A DNA stretch of 22,213 bases from an uncultured Blautia sp. (GTDB lineage Bacteria > Bacillota > Clostridia > Lachnospirales > Lachnospiraceae). The notes under the pieces are model-generated. The model saw nothing but the letters and a program-made list of their open reading frames with translations. It had not been told where the DNA came from and did not search any database. Positions 15,064 to 22,213 of the stretch are shown here, piece by piece. How positions within the stretch are numbered: the stretch's first letter is position 1; every line of letters begins with the position of its first letter. The DNA lies in NCBI GenBank assembly GCA_934378195.1, contig CAKRPO010000039.1:1-22213 (forward strand), read 5' to 3'. Both the position numbers and the translations under genes were made by a program.

Positions 15064-15100
15064 AAAGATGTGGACCTAGAATAAGGCCCGCATCTTTTTT
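15064..15100. terminator. Shared terminator of the converging trhP and sigK genes
   Basis: AAAGATGTGGACC (15064-15076) pairs with GGCCCGCATCTTT (15085-15097) around an eight-base loop, with one G-U pair and one mismatch. Six T's end the right arm on the plus strand. The sigK stop codon (15078-15076) and its last codons lie inside the hairpin, so the same structure serves as the end of sigK on the minus strand with a weaker T-rich tail. Confidence 0.85.
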
Positions 15101-15693
15101 AATGCATTCTTTTCAATTCTGGAAACATAAGAACGACTGATGTGAAGCTGATCGGCAATTTCACGCTGCGTCATTTCTTCGCGGCCAAATAATCCGAAAC
15201 GGCAGCAGATCACCTGATATTCCTTTGGCGTGAGCAGATCTTTCATAGAAGACAAAAGAAAGCGGATATCCTCCCGGATGGAATATTCTTCTACAATATC
15301 GACAGGCGGACTTTCGATGATGTCCAGCAGATTGATCTCGTTTCCTTCTTTATCGGTGCCAATCGGTTCGTACAGGGAAACCTCACGCGAACATTTCTTT
15401 CGGGCGCGGAGCATCATCAGAAGCTCATTGTCAATGCATCGTGCAGCATAAGTGGACAGTCTGGCTGAACGTTCCAGATTGAAAGTGGAGATGGCTTTGA
15501 TCAGTCCAATCGTACCAATAGAGATCAGGTCTTCAAGATCTTCGCCATTTCCCTGGTATTTTTTGGCAACATGGGCGACCAGACGGAGATTGCGTTCGAT
15601 CAGGATACGCTTAGCCTCCGGATCCCCTTCCTGGCAGAGTTTGAGACAGAGTTTTTCCTCTGCAGCGGTCAAAGGTTTCTGAAAAGTTTTCAA
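15076..15693 (-). CDS. sigK: RNA polymerase sporulation sigma factor SigK, without pro-sequence
   Basis: This 205-residue sigma-70 family factor directs late mother-cell transcription in sporulation. Region 2 reads NLRLVAHVAKKYQ, then the core-binding DLISIGTIGLIKAI (55-68) and the -10 recognition part LSTYAARCIDNELLM. SREVSLYEPIGTDKEGNEI is a SigK/SigE-type linker, and region 4 has the helix-turn-helix TQREIADQLHISRSYVSRIEK (175-195). The frame stays open to 15864, but the start is taken as TTG at 15693, four bases after GAGGTGG (15704-15698). A sigma-K type promoter begins only some 28 bases upstream of that TTG, so longer starts would lie outside the message. The N-terminus MKTFQKPLT aligns with the start of mature Bacillus sigma-K, so no cleavable pro-peptide exists. 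The gene is uninterrupted by a skin-type element. Confidence 0.92.
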   Translation of the reverse strand: MKTFQKPLTAAEEKLCLKLCQEGDPEAKRILIERNLRLVAHVAKKYQGNGEDLEDLISIGTIGLIKAISTFNLERSARLSTYAARCIDNELLMMLRARKKCSREVSLYEPIGTDKEGNEINLLDIIESPPVDIVEEYSIREDIRFLLSSMKDLLTPKEYQVICCRFGLFGREEMTQREIADQLHISRSYVSRIEKNALKKMRALF

Positions 15694-15720
15694 ATGTCCA
15701 CCTCGAAAGGGGCTTCCATA

Positions 15721-15749
15721 TAGTCTATGTACAGGACATGTTTCCTGTG
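15721..15749 (-). promoter_or_regulatory. Sigma-K type promoter of sigK with an inverted repeat
   Basis: On the minus strand CACA (15749-15746), 16 bases, then CATAGACTA (15729-15721) match the sigma-K consensus mACm-16/17-CATAnnnTA at every defined position. The start of transcription would fall near 15714, about 20 bases before the TTG. The spacer and -35 hold a perfect inverted repeat, ACAGGA/TCCTGT (15731-15736 and 15743-15748), a candidate operator. Sigma-E promoters share the CATA-type -10, so sigma-E use is also possible. Confidence 0.65.
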
Positions 15750-15805
15750 CTTTTCCCATAAATGAATTGCATGATTTGCATGTTATTATCTGTGAACAGT
15801 AACGT

Positions 15806-15834
15806 TTGCGTATCACCCCGATGTAGTGTATAAT
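15806..15834 (+). promoter_or_regulatory. Sigma-A promoter of the three-gene unknown operon
   Basis: TTGCGT (15806-15811), a 17-base spacer, then a perfect TATAAT (15829-15834). It points to the gene starting at 15885, with a leader of about 45 bases ending in AGGTGA. It diverges from the sigK promoter, the -35 elements being some 56 bases apart. Confidence 0.8.
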
Positions 15835-15884
15835 GTTTTGTATATGAGAAAAATACACTTTCAAGGATAATCAGGTGAACCGTA

Positions 15885-18800
15885 TTGAAAAAAAGGATTG
15901 AACAGATACTCAGTGGAAAATTTGAATATGACCAGCCGGAACTTCTTTTTTCAAAGGAAAAGCTGGAGATAAAGATCAAAGCAGGAACGACCACACAGAG
16001 CGAACTGTATCTTGGAACGGAAGAGAATGATAAGATACAGGGATATATTACCTCATCCGACCGACGATTTGTTCCTGGCAGCAGCCGATTTTCCGGTACA
16101 ACCGTATGCCTGCCATATGGAATTGATGCTGTCGGCATGCAGCCGGGAGATGTTTGCAGAGGATGGCTTTGCGTAACATCCAACATAGGTGAATATAAGC
16201 TTCCGTTTACAATCGAAGCAGTAAAAGAAGAACTCGTAAGTTCTGTCGGCAGGATTGCAGATATGGATACGTTCTGTGAAATTTCGCGAAAAGATTTCCG
16301 GGAAGCATATCATCTTTTTTCTGAAAGAGATTTTTATACAGTACTGAAACATGCTGACAAAAAACAGAAGGCATTGTATGCAGGACTTTCTCATCAGCCG
16401 ATAACGTACCAGCATCTGGAGGAATTTCTGATTGGGCTGAAAGAAAAAGAACCGGTATCCATCTCTCTGAAGACGACAGGTGCAGAGTTTTACAATGTTG
16501 AAGAAGATATGCAGGAGTCTTTCGAGATACAGCGAAGTGGATGGGGACATCTTCGACTTGAGATAGAGGTAAAGGGAGATTTCCTGGAACCGGAACGCCA
16601 TGTGATCACGGATGAAGAGTTTATCGGGAGCAGTGTCCAGATCAGTTATCTGGTGCATGCAGACAAACTCAAAAAAGATAATCACATGGGTGAGATTATT
16701 GTAAGAAGTCCATATCAGGAACTGGAATATCACGTGGTTGCATCGCAGGGATCACGTATCCATATTGATGTGCACAGAGAGGAAAAGCGGCATAAACTGG
16801 CGCTTGTAAGAGATTATCTGGAATATCAGCAGGGAAAGACGGATTTCCAGACCTGGAAAGAGAATTCTGGATTTGAACTGAATCAGCTTCAGGAAGCAAG
16901 CTGCGACTATCCGGAGTATCAGTTCCTTGAATCCTATATGGCACATCTGGATGGAAATGATAACGAGGCAAAAAAAATACTCAAAAGTTATCATGGCAAG
17001 GAATTTACCAGAGATGAATTGGAAACAGCAGGGATTTATCTGTATCTCTGTACGGTGACCGGCCTTTATAAGGACAGAGGACAGGCCGTGTGGAAGCTTC
17101 AGAATTTTTTCAGACAGAAAGAAGACAGCTTTCAGCTGTTCTGGCTTCTCCTTCAGTTGGATAGTACGTATCGTACTTCACCGTCGAAAGTCCTTTTTAT
17201 GATGGAAGAGCTTTATGAGAAGGGGTGTTCCAGTCCGCTTCTTTATGCGGAAGCATGGAAAATGATCAGTGAAGATGTTTCGCTGCTTCATCGTCTGACA
17301 CCGTTCTGGATCCAGACCTTCTGCTATGCAGGTAAACATGATCTGCTTACGGAAGAACTGGTCATGCGCCTGGCCTATCTGTCGGGATACGAGAAGAATT
17401 TTTGTGGAAGTCTCTATAAAGCTCTTGCAGCCGGTTATGAGAAATTTGCAGCGGATGATGTTCTGGAAGCAATCTGCAAATATATCATGAAGGGCGAGCC
17501 TCGCAAAACTATGTATTTCAAATGGTTTTCTGCTGCAGTCAATCGTGGGCTCCGGATTACCAGACTGTTTGAATATTATGTGGAAACAATGGATATCACA
17601 TACAGAAGACAACTTCCCAAGCCGCTTCTGATGTATTTTGCGTATAATGACAATTCGCTTGGTGATACACGCAAGGCTTATGTTTATGCGAGTGTGATTG
17701 CATTTAAAGACAAGGATCCGAAAACATACGAGAATTATAAGGATGCCATGGAGCATTTTGCGTATCGCAAAGTCCGGGAAGGACAGCTGGATGAGAATTA
17801 TGCGATCCTTTATCAGGAATTTTTGTTTGATCCGGTAAGCAGGGAGGATGGAGAACTCATTGCACCGAAACTGTTTACATACCGCCTGTACTGTGACGAC
17901 AGCAATGTACGTCAGGTCATCGTGCGGCACAGTCAGTTTGCAGAGGAAGAGGTTTATCCGTGCTGCAGAGGAATCGCTTATCCGAGAATTTACACAGAGG
18001 ATGCAGTGATACTGTTTCAGGATGATAAACAGCGTCGGTATGTCTCAACGATCCCGTATAATCTCACCAAACTTACAGATGAAAGTGCCGCGGTGCCGGA
18101 GCTTTTGAAACTCGGGGTGAAAGAACGGGGACTTCTTCTGCATTATTGTGAGTCGACTGCACTGGATGCAGAGAATCTCGAATATTTTCAGAGTCTGGCA
18201 GAACTTGAAGACTGCACAGATGAATTCCGTGATTATGTAAGAAAACAGATTCTGGAATACTATGCAGCCAATGTGCATGATGAAAAAATTGACCGTTATC
18301 TCGAAAAGATAGATTTCCGTCAATATGCGCGGGTAGACCGAACAACGCTTCTTGAGATTCTGATTACCCGAAGAATGTTCCGGCAGGCGATGGCAATCGT
18401 AGAAGAACTTGGCTATGAGGGATTGGATCTGAGTTGTCTTCTTAAAATGACAAGCCGAATGATCCTTAAAAGTGATATGGCAGAAGATGATGAGCTTCTT
18501 GCCTTGGCTTCAGAGGTTTATCGTGAAGGCAAATATGATGAAGTGATCCTGCATTATCTGATGCTGTATCGTTTTGGACCGATAGATGAGCTGCTTTCCA
18601 TCTGGAAGAGTGCCAGAGGATTTGAAATGGATACCTATGATCTGGAAGAACGGATCTTAAGTCTTCTGATCTTTACGTCGGATTATCGCAAAGAGGGCGA
18701 AGCTGTGCTGGAATCCTATGTGAAACAGTCTGGTAAAGAACGAATTATCGGGGCTTACCTTACCCTGGTATCTTATGGTGTCTTCGTCAGAGAGTATACG

Positions 18801-19430
18801 ATGAGTCCGTTTGTCAGAAGCAGACTGGAACATGCATTCACCAGCAAATGGCCGGTGAACATCATCTGCAGACTGGCCCTTCTGCAGGAAATTTCCAGAG
18901 AAAAGGATCCCAAACCGGAATATGTGGGGATTGCGCAGAGCATACTGGAAGAGTGTGCAAAGGATGACCTGAGATTTGCCTTTTTCCGCAAACTGCCACC
19001 GGAACTTTTGAGTCCGTATCAGCTGGATGACAAGACTTTTGTGGAATGTCATGCGGCACCGGGAGTCAGAGTCACCCTGTTTTACAGACTGGATACAGGA
19101 CTTGGGACAGAGAGCGAATACAAATGTGAACCACTGAAAGAAATGTATCAGGGAATTTTTGTACGGACATTTACACTGTTTTATGGAGAGACCCTTCAGT
19201 ATTATTTCCAGATCGACCAGGGAGAAGAGTCAAAGAAAACTCCGGAGCGGGTCGTGACAATGAAAAAAATTGAGGGGACTTCCGGAAGTAAATATCAGAT
19301 GCTGAATCAGATCCTGTCTGCAAGAAGACTGGATAAGATACAGGAAGTAACCGACAGTCTGAAAGATTATCTCAGACAGGAACAGTATGTAAAAACCATG
19401 TTTACCATAGAGAAGGAAAGCGGAAAATGA
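15885..19430 (+). CDS. Large cytoplasmic protein of unknown function, resembling the DUF5717 family
   Basis: The 1181-residue product has no signal peptide, membrane helix or enzyme motif that I can see. Residues 14-112 and 188-288 look like two related beta-sandwich domains. Both show Phe-x-Gly, then a strand with a tyrosine, then a Gly-rich turn leading to a strand and Ser-x(2-4)-Glu (RFSGTTVCLPYGID to TSNIGEYKLPF; EFIGSSVQISYLVH to RSPYQELEYHV). Residues about 295-1040 are a long run of helix pairs of TPR-like or other solenoid type. Residues 1048-1130 form a further beta domain (GVRVTLFYRLDT, GIFVRTFTLFYGETLQYYFQI), followed by a helical tail. From memory this resembles a family called DUF5717 in Lachnospiraceae; I could not check this. 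The TTG start has AGGTGA six bases upstream. Its stop overlaps the next start (ATGA), so it leads a tight operon. A scaffold or assembly platform is a reasonable guess only. Confidence 0.85.
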   Translation: MKKRIEQILSGKFEYDQPELLFSKEKLEIKIKAGTTTQSELYLGTEENDKIQGYITSSDRRFVPGSSRFSGTTVCLPYGIDAVGMQPGDVCRGWLCVTSNIGEYKLPFTIEAVKEELVSSVGRIADMDTFCEISRKDFREAYHLFSERDFYTVLKHADKKQKALYAGLSHQPITYQHLEEFLIGLKEKEPVSISLKTTGAEFYNVEEDMQESFEIQRSGWGHLRLEIEVKGDFLEPERHVITDEEFIGSSVQISYLVHADKLKKDNHMGEIIVRSPYQELEYHVVASQGSRIHIDVHREEKRHKLALVRDYLEYQQGKTDFQTWKENSGFELNQLQEASCDYPEYQFLESYMAHLDGNDNEAKKILKSYHGKEFTRDELETAGIYLYLCTVTGLYKDRGQAVWKLQNFFRQKEDSFQLFWLLLQLDSTYRTSPSKVLFMMEELYEKGCSSPLLYAEAWKMISEDVSLLHRLTPFWIQTFCYAGKHDLLTEELVMRLAYLSGYEKNFCGSLYKALAAGYEKFAADDVLEAICKYIMKGEPRKTMYFKWFSAAVNRGLRITRLFEYYVETMDITYRRQLPKPLLMYFAYNDNSLGDTRKAYVYASVIAFKDKDPKTYENYKDAMEHFAYRKVREGQLDENYAILYQEFLFDPVSREDGELIAPKLFTYRLYCDDSNVRQVIVRHSQFAEEEVYPCCRGIAYPRIYTEDAVILFQDDKQRRYVSTIPYNLTKLTDESAAVPELLKLGVKERGLLLHYCESTALDAENLEYFQSLAELEDCTDEFRDYVRKQILEYYAANVHDEKIDRYLEKIDFRQYARVDRTTLLEILITRRMFRQAMAIVEELGYEGLDLSCLLKMTSRMILKSDMAEDDELLALASEVYREGKYDEVILHYLMLYRFGPIDELLSIWKSARGFEMDTYDLEERILSLLIFTSDYRKEGEAVLESYVKQSGKERIIGAYLTLVSYGVFVREYTMSPFVRSRLEHAFTSKWPVNIICRLALLQEISREKDPKPEYVGIAQSILEECAKDDLRFAFFRKLPPELLSPYQLDDKTFVECHAAPGVRVTLFYRLDTGLGTESEYKCEPLKEMYQGIFVRTFTLFYGETLQYYFQIDQGEESKKTPERVVTMKKIEGTSGSKYQMLNQILSARRLDKIQEVTDSLKDYLRQEQYVKTMFTIEKESGK

Positions 19431-20686
19431 ACGAAACAAGAGATTTGATCATTGGAATTGATTTTGGAAAAGAATATTCTCAGATCTGTTATTATGACCG
19501 CAAGGCGGAAGAACCGCGTTCTCTTCCGGTGAAAGTAGGAAGCAGTCAGGTTGAGATGCCGACATGTCTGTGTCTGCGTTCGGATCAGAAAACCTGGTGT
19601 GCAGGGCTGGAGGCGGAATATTTTGCAAGAGAGAAAGGCGGATTTCTGGCAGGTGATCTGTATGAGATCTCTGCGAAGGATACGTCTGTTACGATTGCGG
19701 GAGAGAAGCTGGAACCGTGGGAGATCCTGGCACATTTTTTACACGAAATGCTGAGACTTTTGGGAATTGCAGATGTGGAAAAAAATATCCGTAGTCTGTC
19801 GGTGGCTATGGAAACGCTGAATATGGTGCAGGTAGAGAATCTCCAGAAAGCTTGCCGGGAACTTGGAATTCCGGAATCCAATACGATCCTTCTGGATTAT
19901 GAAGAGAGTTTTTATTATTATGTCATGACACAAAAAATAGAAACATGGAACAGAAGTGTTGGCTGGTACAGCTTTGAGAATGAGGAAGTGAGCTTTCGCC
20001 GGATGTCCATGAACTCTGGAACACGACCGGTGCTGGTGCGTCTGGAAGTGCCTGTCCGTACCGTGCTGAGCAAAAATCCGGAAGAACGCGATGCAGAATT
20101 CTATACCTTTATCAAGGATACACTTGGCAAAGAACTATATTCCAGTATCCAGATCAATGGAGAAGGGTTTGACCAGGAATGGGCACAGAAATCGGTGAAA
20201 CTTTTGTGCTACCAGAGAAGAAAAGTTTTTTATGGAAACAACCTGTTTGCACGTGGCGCATGTGGGGCAGGAGCAGAACGATTTCTGAACCATGACCTCA
20301 AAGACTATTGTTATATGAGCAGTTCACTGGTGCTTTCTGATGTTGGTATGGAAATGCGTGTGATGGGGACACCTGCCTATTATCCACTGATCGAATCAGG
20401 AAGGAACTGGTATGAAAGCAATGCTTATGTAGAGCTGATCCTGGATGATACAAAGGAACTTGTCTTTATTGTAGATACCATGGGAGAAGCGAAGAAGAAA
20501 CGGATTGCCATGGCACTGCCGGGATTGCCGGAGAGACCGGATCGGACGACCAGACTTGGCGTGTCTCTGCAGTATACATCGCAGACAGAATGTCAGGTTC
20601 TTGTAAAGGATCTTGGATTTGGCGAGATGTTTCCGTCAAGCGGTATGGAATGGAAAGAAACGACCAGATGGCAGGAGGAATCATAA
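19427..20686 (+). CDS. Divergent Hsp70/actin-fold protein of unknown function, resembling the DUF5716 family
   Basis: The product has 419 residues. The N-terminal LIIGIDFGKEYSQICYYD (7-24) is a typical phosphate-1 loop of the actin/Hsp70 superfamily. Residues 124-168 follow the Hsp70 pattern before the second loop (LSVAMETLNMVQVENLQKAC, then LLDYEESFYYYVM in the place of [12 protein letters not shown]). The expected phosphate-2 loop is degenerate: GWYSFENEEVSF (179-190) where DnaK has [23 protein letters not shown] (272-282) is a plausible adenosine motif. Residues 320-404 resemble the Hsp70 substrate-binding beta domain, with LPGLPERP and VKDLGFGE where DnaK has LDGIPPAR and AKDLGTGK. No helical lid follows. 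It may bind nucleotide without normal hydrolysis. It overlaps the preceding gene by four bases and abuts the next one. Confidence 0.85.
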   Translation: MNETRDLIIGIDFGKEYSQICYYDRKAEEPRSLPVKVGSSQVEMPTCLCLRSDQKTWCAGLEAEYFAREKGGFLAGDLYEISAKDTSVTIAGEKLEPWEILAHFLHEMLRLLGIADVEKNIRSLSVAMETLNMVQVENLQKACRELGIPESNTILLDYEESFYYYVMTQKIETWNRSVGWYSFENEEVSFRRMSMNSGTRPVLVRLEVPVRTVLSKNPEERDAEFYTFIKDTLGKELYSSIQINGEGFDQEWAQKSVKLLCYQRRKVFYGNNLFARGACGAGAERFLNHDLKDYCYMSSSLVLSDVGMEMRVMGTPAYYPLIESGRNWYESNAYVELILDDTKELVFIVDTMGEAKKKRIAMALPGLPERPDRTTRLGVSLQYTSQTECQVLVKDLGFGEMFPSSGMEWKETTRWQEES

Positions 20687-21469
20687 GTGAGCGGATATAT
20701 ATTGTGTCAGACAAAGCGGGCATCGCTTCCGTATTTTATAGAAAATATCAGTACAAATGTGTATTCCATTGAGGAACTTTGTTATTATCTGTATCACAAT
20801 CTTTATCTGGTCGACCAGACGATCATGAATGAGGGACTGTGCAGCTGGATCCAGGAGGAACTGGAACTCACAGGGCTGGCAGCAAAGCTTCGTTCCAAGA
20901 TTGGGAAATTTGTAAGTGTGGAAGACATTCTCTATCCCGTTTTTAAAGAAATCAATTATCTGACGTATGAAGAACTGAAAAATTTGAATGTGCGTCTCCA
21001 GAAAATGAATGCGGAGGCACCGGCAATGCGTGAAAAGCAAAAAGCCGATGCACTGATGGAGAACAGAATGTATGTGCATGCCATACAGGTCTATCAGAAA
21101 CTTCTGGAAAGAGAGAATCTGGAGGAGATCAGAGAGGGACTGACAGAAAGTGTCTATCACAATCTGGGTTGTGCATACAGTTATCTTTTCCAGATGGAAA
21201 AGGCGGTTGACTGTTTCCGTAAGGCATATGAGGGCGGCCGGAGCCGGACATCGCTGGAGTCTTATCTGATTGCTTTTGGAATGACAAGGACACCGGCAGA
21301 GTATGAAAAAATGGCGAAGTCGGTAGGTGCAGAAAAAGAAATCCTGCAGGACATTCGTGCGAGGCTTCAGGAATTTTCAAAGATACAGGAGATTACGGTG
21401 AATAAGGAGAATATGGACGAAATACTCACAAAAATGACTCGTGAATATCACAGAAGTACGGGCTCGTGA
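20687..21469 (+). CDS. TPR-containing protein of unknown function, third gene of the operon
   Basis: The 260-residue protein is mostly helical, cytoplasmic and without enzyme motifs. The N-terminal 110 residues form a helical region (VYSIEELCYYLYHNLYLVDQ, then WIQEELELTGLAAKLRSKIG) that I do not recognise. Two TPR-like units follow at about 116-145 (ADALMENRMYVHAIQVYQKLL) and 155-186 (VYHNLGCAYSYLFQMEKAVDCFRKA), then further helices. TPR proteins often act as co-factors of Hsp70-type proteins, which fits its neighbour, but direct partnership is inference. The GTG start at 20687 begins immediately after the TAA of the preceding gene, with AGGAGGAA at 20673-20680 inside that gene, so translation is coupled. 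It ends the operon; no clear terminator follows. Confidence 0.85.
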   Translation: MSGYILCQTKRASLPYFIENISTNVYSIEELCYYLYHNLYLVDQTIMNEGLCSWIQEELELTGLAAKLRSKIGKFVSVEDILYPVFKEINYLTYEELKNLNVRLQKMNAEAPAMREKQKADALMENRMYVHAIQVYQKLLERENLEEIREGLTESVYHNLGCAYSYLFQMEKAVDCFRKAYEGGRSRTSLESYLIAFGMTRTPAEYEKMAKSVGAEKEILQDIRARLQEFSKIQEITVNKENMDEILTKMTREYHRSTGS

Positions 21470-21593: not shown

Positions 21594-22213
21594 ATGTTAG
21601 TAAACGCTTCAGAAATGTTGAAAAAAGCAAAAGCTGGTCACTATGCAGTAGGTCAGTTCAACATTAACAACCTTGAGTGGACAAAAGCAATCCTGCTTAC
21701 AGCACAGGAACTCAACTCTCCGGTTATCCTTGGTGTATCCGAAGGTGCAGGAAAATACATGACAGGTTATAAGACTGTTGTTGGTATGGTGAAAGGAATG
21801 ATCGAGGAACTCAATATCACAGTTCCGGTTGCACTTCACCTGGATCACGGCAGCTACGAAGGATGCCTGAAATGCGTAGAAGCCGGTTTCACATCTATCA
21901 TGTTTGATGGTTCCCATTATCCGATCGAAGAGAACGTAGAAAAAACAAAAGAACTGGTTAAGATCGTTGCTGACCACGGAATGTCTCTGGAAGCAGAAGT
22001 TGGTTCCATCGGTGGTGAAGAAGATGGTGTAGTAGGTATGGGTGAATGTGCAGATCCTCAGGAATGCAAGATGGTTGCAGATCTTGGTATCGATTTCCTT
22101 GCAGCAGGTATCGGTAACATCCACGGTAAATACCCGGCTAACTGGAAAGGTCTGAGCTTTGAGACTCTGGATGCTATTCAGCAGCTGACAGGAGATATGC
22201 CACTTGTACTTCA
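21594..22213 (+). CDS. fba: Class II fructose-1,6-bisphosphate aldolase, 3' end cut off by the window edge
   Basis: The frame opens with ATG eight bases after AGGAGG and runs without a stop to the window end, giving about 206 residues of a protein usually near 290-310. It is the zinc-dependent aldolase of glycolysis and gluconeogenesis, cleaving fructose bisphosphate to glyceraldehyde phosphate and dihydroxyacetone phosphate. Visible motifs are VGQFNINNLEW near the N-terminus, the HLDHG segment with the catalytic aspartate and a zinc-ligand histidine, MFDGSHYPIEEN, EAEVGSIGGEEDG with a zinc-site glutamate, and AAGIGNIHGKYP with another zinc-ligand histidine. Codon use is strongly biased, like that of dnaK, as expected for an abundant enzyme. 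It follows the TPR gene by 124 bases and probably has its own promoter. Confidence 0.96.
   Translation, partial: MLVNASEMLKKAKAGHYAVGQFNINNLEWTKAILLTAQELNSPVILGVSEGAGKYMTGYKTVVGMVKGMIEELNITVPVALHLDHGSYEGCLKCVEAGFTSIMFDGSHYPIEENVEKTKELVKIVADHGMSLEAEVGSIGGEEDGVVGMGECADPQECKMVADLGIDFLAAGIGNIHGKYPANWKGLSFETLDAIQQLTGDMPLVL

Follow-up and report, generated by a model that had tools for sequence, protein, structure and literature searches.

Three described chaperone systems bear on the locus reported here. According to PMC7083937, the Hsp70 Ssz1 has no lid, binds ATP without hydrolysing it, and contacts nascent chains via the beta subdomain of its substrate-binding domain (SBD-beta). According to Kaur et al. 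(2020; PMC7159879), the second theme of the GAP1-N2 systems comprises an HSP70, a GrpE, a second HSP70 that lacks the peptide-binding domain, and a protein of FNIII repeats joined to DnaJ or TPR, and proteins with vWA and transmembrane (TM) regions occur in the same class of systems. The third is the DnaK-DnaJ-GrpE system. We analysed a 22,213-nucleotide (nt) stretch from an uncultured Blautia sp. (contig CAKRPO010000039.1; hereafter the window), in which three adjacent genes encode a DUF5717 protein, a DUF5716 protein with an Hsp70-like fold, and a TPR protein. This operon probably encodes a non-catalytic, Hsp70-derived scaffold complex, and it is apparently the remnant of a larger chaperone machine that relatives within the order still carry. 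Its role is now testable. The three genes, identified from open reading frames (ORFs), Pfam matches and, for gene 2, the fold, are as follows.

15885..19430, + strand: gene 1, DUF5717 protein, 1181 amino acids (aa), TTG start
19427..20686, + strand: gene 2, DUF5716 pseudo-Hsp70, 419 aa, ATG start, 4-base overlap with gene 1
20687..21469, + strand: gene 3, TPR protein, 260 aa, GTG start, 0 bp after gene 2

By analogy, Ssz1 is the nearest tested precedent for gene 2, the two having in common a lid-less Hsp70 anatomy, by prediction in the case of gene 2. Whereas the ribosome-associated complex (RAC) has a J-domain partner, the partners here are an immunoglobulin (Ig)/TPR-solenoid protein, a TPR protein and, in about half of the family, a protein with two TM segments. 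Gene 2 groups with bacterial DUF5716 proteins in a tree whose sampling leaves Ssz1 outside. The nearest published gene neighbourhood is the GAP1-N2 HSP70/GrpE theme, which, as described there, resembles the operon of the relatives in its HSP70s, GrpE, FNIII/TPR-type, vWA and TM proteins, the likeness of gene 1 to the FNIII protein being one of description. The relatives' operon differs from it in having four Hsp70-family members, one of them fused to VWA and one a pseudo-Hsp70; the locus reported here is also nearly universal in the family. The DnaK-DnaJ-GrpE system is matched in the Hsp70 fold and, in the relatives' operon, in three catalytically intact Hsp70s and a GrpE-like protein, whereas no J-domain was found in the operon and gene 2 is without the catalytic residues. 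A literature search on Hsp70/GrpE/VWA brought up no paper that we recognised as describing the relatives' operon, PMC7159879 alone being close, and a full-text search under the names DUF5717 and DUF5716 found a single paper, whose title and abstract deal with an unrelated subject, and thus no role described for either family, in line with the first-pass annotation of this DNA.

The three-gene operon was confirmed as real. The ORF listing and the reading of the sequence placed all three frames on the same strand, with a 4-base overlap (ATGA) between genes 1 and 2 and a junction of 0 bases between genes 2 and 3, exactly as annotated at first pass. Gene 2 matched the whole profile of DUF5716_C (PF18980, 2.2e-98), and structure prediction bore out the actin/Hsp70 fold that had been proposed for it. 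Its predicted fold consists of two parts.

19439..20320, + strand: degenerate actin/Hsp70-type nucleotide-binding domain (NBD), residues 5-298
20324..20668, + strand: SBD-beta-like sandwich, residues 300-414, no alpha-helical lid

The model thus has the actin-type NBD plus SBD-beta that mark the Hsp70 superfamily structurally. No helix of four or more residues was predicted past residue 288, and the protein stops at residue 419, just after the sandwich. Because a sequence-profile search against PDB sequences returned no Hsp70 (three matches only, E 0.2-0.6), the fold match relies on structure prediction and on the HspB family (the DUF5716 proteins of the relatives) as an intermediate. In the alignment, we scored K71, E175 and T204, which we take to be the catalytic residues in Hsc70 numbering, together with G203 and D206. 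These five columns were kept in 0 of 39 gene 2 proteins and 0 of 13 HspB proteins, and in 41 of 41 HspA, HspC and HspVWA proteins, the remaining Hsp70s of the relatives' operon. K71 and T204 were lost in all 52 DUF5716 proteins (39 gene 2 and 13 HspB). Gene 2 therefore lacks what an Hsp70 with an ATPase cycle has, namely the catalytic residues, the DxGGGT loop and the helical lid, and an ATP-driven cycle is unlikely since the K71 and T204 equivalents are gone in all 39 proteins scored. The model and the alignment support gene 2 as an Hsp70 with an NBD and SBD-beta, no lid, and the key ATP-hydrolysis residues gone.

Gene 1 gave full-profile matches to the DUF5717 pair (PF18984 and PF18983), with DUF5717_N at 1.4e-261 and DUF5717 at 2.1e-99. 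Its predicted model (pLDDT, the predicted local distance difference test, 87.8) agreed with the early description of a 1181-residue protein with beta domains flanking a helical solenoid, the beta domains lying at about residues 20-115, 190-290 and 1050-1125 around helical solenoids.

15939..16226, + strand: first Ig-type beta domain (PapD/ASH/MSP-like), residues 19-114, predicted
16452..16757, + strand: second Ig-type beta domain, residues 190-291, predicted
16770..19019, + strand: TPR-type helical solenoid, residues 296-1045, with a beta insert at about 665-730, from the model and Foldseek
19032..19259, + strand: C-terminal beta domain, residues 1050-1125, followed by two helices, from the model

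Foldseek related the solenoid to TPR/solenoid scaffolds, for example Ctr9, with low TM-scores and a large root-mean-square deviation, and on this model the middle region can only be read as a TPR-type solenoid, nothing narrower. Gene 3 was retained as a TPR protein (TPR_2, 1.1e-6). The reported lack of a membrane segment also held for the three proteins, the top 19-residue Kyte-Doolittle means being 0.99, 0.98 and 0.59 for genes 1 to 3.

The co-occurrence and gene-order check proposed at first pass was carried out on draws of genomes and on fetched loci, which are denoted by G and L numbers. In a draw of 200 genomes from the family of Blautia sp. Marseille-P3087 (G001), presumably the Lachnospiraceae, DUF5716_C was found in 195, DUF5717_N in 196 and both in 193. 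The other seven, which gave no match to one or both families, are G267, G275, G337, G344, G374, G392 and G444. Among 245 genomes drawn from the class, 9 had DUF5716 and 10 had DUF5717, the latter count including one weak fragment. The co-presence of genes 1 and 2 is far beyond chance. As a side observation, G275 (3.6 Mb) and G337 (2.3 Mb) matched neither DUF5717_N nor DUF5716_C.

Gene order was read from 41 loci, comprising the window and 40 fetched regions of around 20 kb (L092-L131), which were picked by the place of gene 2 (38) or of gene 1 (2: G362 and G392). Consequently, the 41-locus figures are conditional on this choice, and the 200-genome draws provide the unbiased figures. Six of the 40 regions (G029, G184, G226, G246, G116 and G140) came from the class draw, their family not being stated. 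Gene 1 was present in 41 loci, gene 2 in 40 and gene 3 in 40. The gene 2 count consists of 39 picked ORFs plus L097 (G090), where an antisense ORF had hidden the gene from ORF picking and a hidden Markov model match was located between genes 1 and 3 (G090:C3:112008-112895). Order and strand were conserved, with median gaps of 16 nt between genes 1 and 2 and 9 nt between genes 2 and 3 (39 loci each). A natural fusion of genes 2 and 3, 709 aa in length, was found in G313. Pairwise distances of genes 1, 2 and 3 correlated with one another at r 0.85-0.89 versus 0.33-0.38 with the neighbouring aminotransferase (22 loci). On account of the conserved order and strand, the tight spacing, the G313 fusion and the correlated distances, genes 1 to 3 are regarded as one co-inherited unit, as the first-pass annotation had held. 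A second fusion candidate, P0154 (339 aa, PF18980 plus TPR), was dropped, as it reads as a frameshifted gene 2 end run into gene 3.

Two features lie beyond the view from the window, namely a fourth gene in about half of the family and a multi-Hsp70/GrpE/VWA operon in relatives. Gene 4 directly follows gene 3 in 25 of the 41 loci and encodes the two-TM protein, which is about 395 aa long in most cases (range 379-504). A Pfam scan of two members gave nothing above cut-off. All 25 proteins contain at least two strongly hydrophobic segments near the middle of the chain, at about residues 160-240 and later in the longer proteins, and the flanks resemble a coiled coil when the sequence is read by eye. 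A profile search matched 94 of the 200 family genomes at E <=0.001, 90 of these at E <=1.3e-17. The same search gave no match in G001, and gene 4 was not found in 52 Blautia-type loci, some of them on short contigs. It lies just 3′ of gene 2 in 66 of the 69 genomes for which both places are available, the exceptions being two weak fragments and one match on another contig near the contig start.

The larger operon was found in a draw of 196 genomes from the order, 94 of which contained DUF5717_N. In 23 of these 94, gene 1 was of the one-piece type seen in the window (or a partial copy of it), and in 71 it was divergent, often split into proteins of about 400 and 900 aa. From 20 loci with a divergent gene 1 and 12 neighbouring regions, the order of the relatives' operon was read as DUF5717, an Hsp70 (HspA), a GrpE-like protein, a DUF5716 protein (HspB), a second Hsp70 (HspC), an Hsp70-VWA fusion (HspVWA) and a TPR protein. 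Judged by its gene 1 type, the multi-Hsp70 type probably lies outside the family. Locus L144 may serve as the example, its members in order being as follows.

DUF5717: two proteins
Hsp70: 559 aa, PF00012 3.1e-75
GrpE-like protein: 642 aa, C-terminal GrpE domain, 4.7e-9
DUF5716 protein: 528 aa, DUF5716 1.7e-23, Hsp70 5e-20
Second Hsp70: 546 aa, 6.9e-61
Hsp70-VWA fusion: 691 aa, Hsp70 7.6e-95, VWA 2.4e-8
TPR protein: last in order, cut by the locus end

Judged by Pfam coverage, the Hsp70s of the relatives' operon appear to stop after SBD-beta. Of the 12 regions extending beyond the TPR protein, seven have gene 4 next (G554, G532, G569, G447, G469, G450 and G476), and the other five gave no gene 4 match. 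Some details of individual members were also observed. The GrpE-like protein of L144 (7068-8996) has about 490 residues ahead of the GrpE domain, and its G447 counterpart is just 279 aa long. In G447, the closest relative that has the multi-Hsp70 operon, Hsp70-VWA reads as two separate ORFs of 198 and 494 aa (L132 1-1384 and L155 9340-11384).

Hsp70-VWA (E <=4.5e-216) followed the type of gene 1, being present in 67 of the 71 order genomes with a divergent gene 1 and in none of the 23 with the window type. It was found in none of the 245 class-draw genomes, where six matches at E <=1e-95 cover the Hsp70 part alone. In 22 genomes searched with the fusion, which include 15 family-draw genomes and G246, G029, G116 and G140, the VWA part was matched only in G447, G497 and G554; all 22 match at E <=0.001 because DnaK matches the Hsp70 part. 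The loss of HspA, HspC and the GrpE-like protein from the family was judged from the 41 loci. These results support the conclusion that the family kept gene 1, the pseudo-Hsp70 and the TPR protein, about half of it also gene 4, and is without Hsp70-VWA wherever tested. Two order-draw genomes, G493 and G553, carry Hsp70-VWA (partial in G553) without a DUF5717_N match.

A tree calculated for 81 proteins united the 39 gene 2 proteins in a single clade (100/99). Its sister (100/100) was HspB of G447, which carries the multi-Hsp70 operon, and HspA, HspC and HspVWA formed separate clades. An aminotransferase gene stands divergently and directly upstream of gene 1 in 21 of the 41 family-type loci, and likewise in 10 of the 20 relatives' loci (12 of 20 when one intervening gene is allowed). 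Twelve aminotransferases of the relatives shared 53-59% identity with the most similar copy in the 41 loci. The tree and the neighbour support gene 2 as the orthologue of HspB at what is apparently the same chromosomal place, and the larger operon is read as the older one because gene 2 groups with HspB of G447 and because the place is shared.

In the scaffold complex that we propose, the TPR solenoids of genes 1 and 3 would bind the pseudo-Hsp70 stoichiometrically, and its SBD-beta would either hold on briefly to stretches of peptide or be occupied by a stretch built into gene 1 or gene 3. The complex would act as an ATP-independent holdase or adaptor, which the gene 4 protein, where present, would tether to the membrane and which may pass clients to the housekeeping DnaK. 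Its working mode would be like that of the eukaryotic Ssz1/Zuo1 (RAC) pair, without membership in RAC. A bolder version, which we put forward tentatively as quite possible and somewhat short of probable, is that the whole family swapped an ATP-driven multi-Hsp70/GrpE/VWA machine for its non-catalytic skeleton, so that genes 1 to 3, with or without gene 4, would make up an ATP-independent chaperone hub that is core to the family and defines it, an independently evolved bacterial counterpart of Ssz1/RAC. If this were true, the larger machine, with its four Hsp70-family proteins per operon, would remain at work in other members of the order. The loss of the ATPases with retention of a pseudo-chaperone and its scaffolds would amount to an experiment of nature on the role of an inactive Hsp70. 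Lachnospiraceae are prominent in the gut, and an operon nearly universal in the family would point to a neglected core function that is testable in cultured Blautia or their kin. The labels DUF5717 and DUF5716 carry no function; what is new here is the predicted fold, the lost catalytic residues, the partner genes and the ancestry.

Several observations weigh against this interpretation. The absence of ATP hydrolysis in gene 2 is deduced from the lost residues, and nucleotide binding may persist in spite of them, as the alignment also shows the equivalent of D10 (the phosphate-1 aspartate) kept in 37 of 39 gene 2 proteins and that of G338 in 39 of 39. The loss of E175 depends on the alignment, a glutamate standing two residues later in 34 of 39 gene 2 and 11 of 13 HspB proteins. 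G392 (L131) has gene 1 without genes 2 and 3, so gene 1 can persist alone, and the neighbour control in the distance comparison is a single gene. With regard to ancestry, the tree was rooted at the midpoint only, and several of its DUF5716 sequences, HspB of G447 among them, show long branches or an unusual composition. The full gene set stands at one place in only part of the 20 relatives' loci, some of which are cut by contig ends. In G621, G615 and G556 a split gene 1 occurs without Hsp70s beside it and Hsp70-VWA lies on other contigs, and in G474 (L166 6204-13182) unrelated genes separate the operon members. The likeness to RAC is reduced by the lack of a J-domain, since no DnaJ Pfam match was obtained in genes 1-3, two gene 4 proteins or the L144 operon, and the HPD motif is not conserved (5 of 41 gene 1, 1 of 39 gene 2, 0 of 40 gene 3 and 0 of 25 gene 4 proteins). 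Membrane tethering is non-essential, since about half of the family lacks gene 4 and no copy was found in Blautia.

Among the other explanations, a co-chaperone made of genes 1 to 3 that recruits or regulates the housekeeping DnaK in the manner of Hsp110 or Ssz1, replacing the lost dedicated Hsp70s, is unlikely. The remaining genes hold neither a J-domain nor a GrpE and show no sign of DnaK contact, and the gene 2 orthologue of the relatives adjoins dedicated Hsp70s and a GrpE-like protein, so that it may never have needed DnaK. A conflict (anti-invader) system akin to the GTPase-centred HSP70/GrpE systems of the GAP1-N2 type would account for the HSP70s, GrpE-like, VWA, Ig-plus-TPR and TM proteins of the relatives' operon. 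We consider it decidedly improbable, since no GAP1 or GTPase Pfam match was found in the L144 operon and no GTPase in window genes 1-3, the two sets covered by the GTPase search. The genome-wide GAP1 search, which covered GAP1-M (PF20014), found it in 2 of 21 genomes, on contigs other than that of the operon, and in none of the other 19, which argues against GAP1-N2 membership. Genes 1-3 and one gene 4 protein gave no PADLOC match (E <=0.01), and HspC and HspVWA of a relative matched PDC-M61B only weakly (6.1e-10 and 6.2e-7). Presence in 193 of 200 family genomes beside a recurrent neighbour is also unlike patchy defence genes, and a search of 72,556 plasmid records returned nothing for gene 2.

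An active ATP-driven chaperone machine formed by the three window genes alone, a reading close to that of the first-pass annotation, could draw on the Hsp70 fold, the TPR partner, the solenoid scaffold, the phosphate-1 aspartate and the glutamate near the E175 column. The Hsp70 derivation of that reading stands, but its working, ATP-driven part is very unlikely, given that the catalytic lysine and threonine equivalents are kept in 0 of 39 proteins, the lid is absent, and genes 1-3 contain no J-domain or exchange factor. A sporulation device is scarcely credible. It would be suggested by the SigK-type gene directly upstream of the operon in the window, but the SigK-type gene cluster occurs in only 4 of the 41 loci, and SpoIVA was found in 135 of the 200 family genomes versus 193 with genes 1 and 2 together, which means that no fewer than 58 of the 65 genomes lacking a SpoIVA match have both. 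The scaffold complex proposed above is thus the reading that we prefer.

The surroundings of the operon were also inspected, and the following features belong to its flanks.

15079..15864, - strand: SigK-type sporulation sigma factor gene (NF004471), divergent neighbour, outside the system
15806..15811, + strand: candidate -35 hexamer TTGCGT, 3 of 6 consensus bases, spacer of 17 nt to the -10
15829..15834, + strand: perfect -10 hexamer TATAAT, read by eye
21594..22213, + strand: downstream neighbour read from the sequence, cut by the window end, outside the system

The sigma-A promoter annotated at first pass kept its perfect TATAAT and lost much of its remaining weight. The -35 is poor, and a consensus scan, which found 6 promoter-like sites versus 11.5 expected by chance, omitted the TATAAT site; therefore, the promoter call is weak. 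The SigK-type neighbour scored 280 bits with NF004471 (cut-off 252) and fell under the stricter cut-off of TIGR02846. The downstream neighbour is presumably a class II fructose-bisphosphate aldolase gene. Neighbours were rejected as a source of function, since all conserved neighbours tested have housekeeping roles (purB/F/C, aminotransferase, ABC transporter and valS). The extra genes among the relatives were likewise set aside as a functional clue, as those of G474, G621, G615 and G505 have no common theme: the intervening genes of G474 encode a serpin, two S41 peptidases, acetyltransferases and an Mrr-type endonuclease, and those adjoining the operon's genes in G621, G615 and G505 encode GGDEF, ScpB, a sigma factor, a pyridoxal phosphate enzyme and hemerythrin.

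Five records labelled ‘Bacteriophage sp.’ matched gene 2 at less than 60% identity. The two that were opened, L173 (MT835486.1) and L174 (MT835719.1), are unannotated and contain genes 1 to 4 in order, gene 1 being cut in L174 and valS following the operon in L173. A phage origin was rejected for both, which are probably mislabelled fragments of bacterial chromosomes in view of this four-gene content and the valS of L173. In the window itself, positions 1-2827 hold dnaK, truncated at the window start, and dnaJ.

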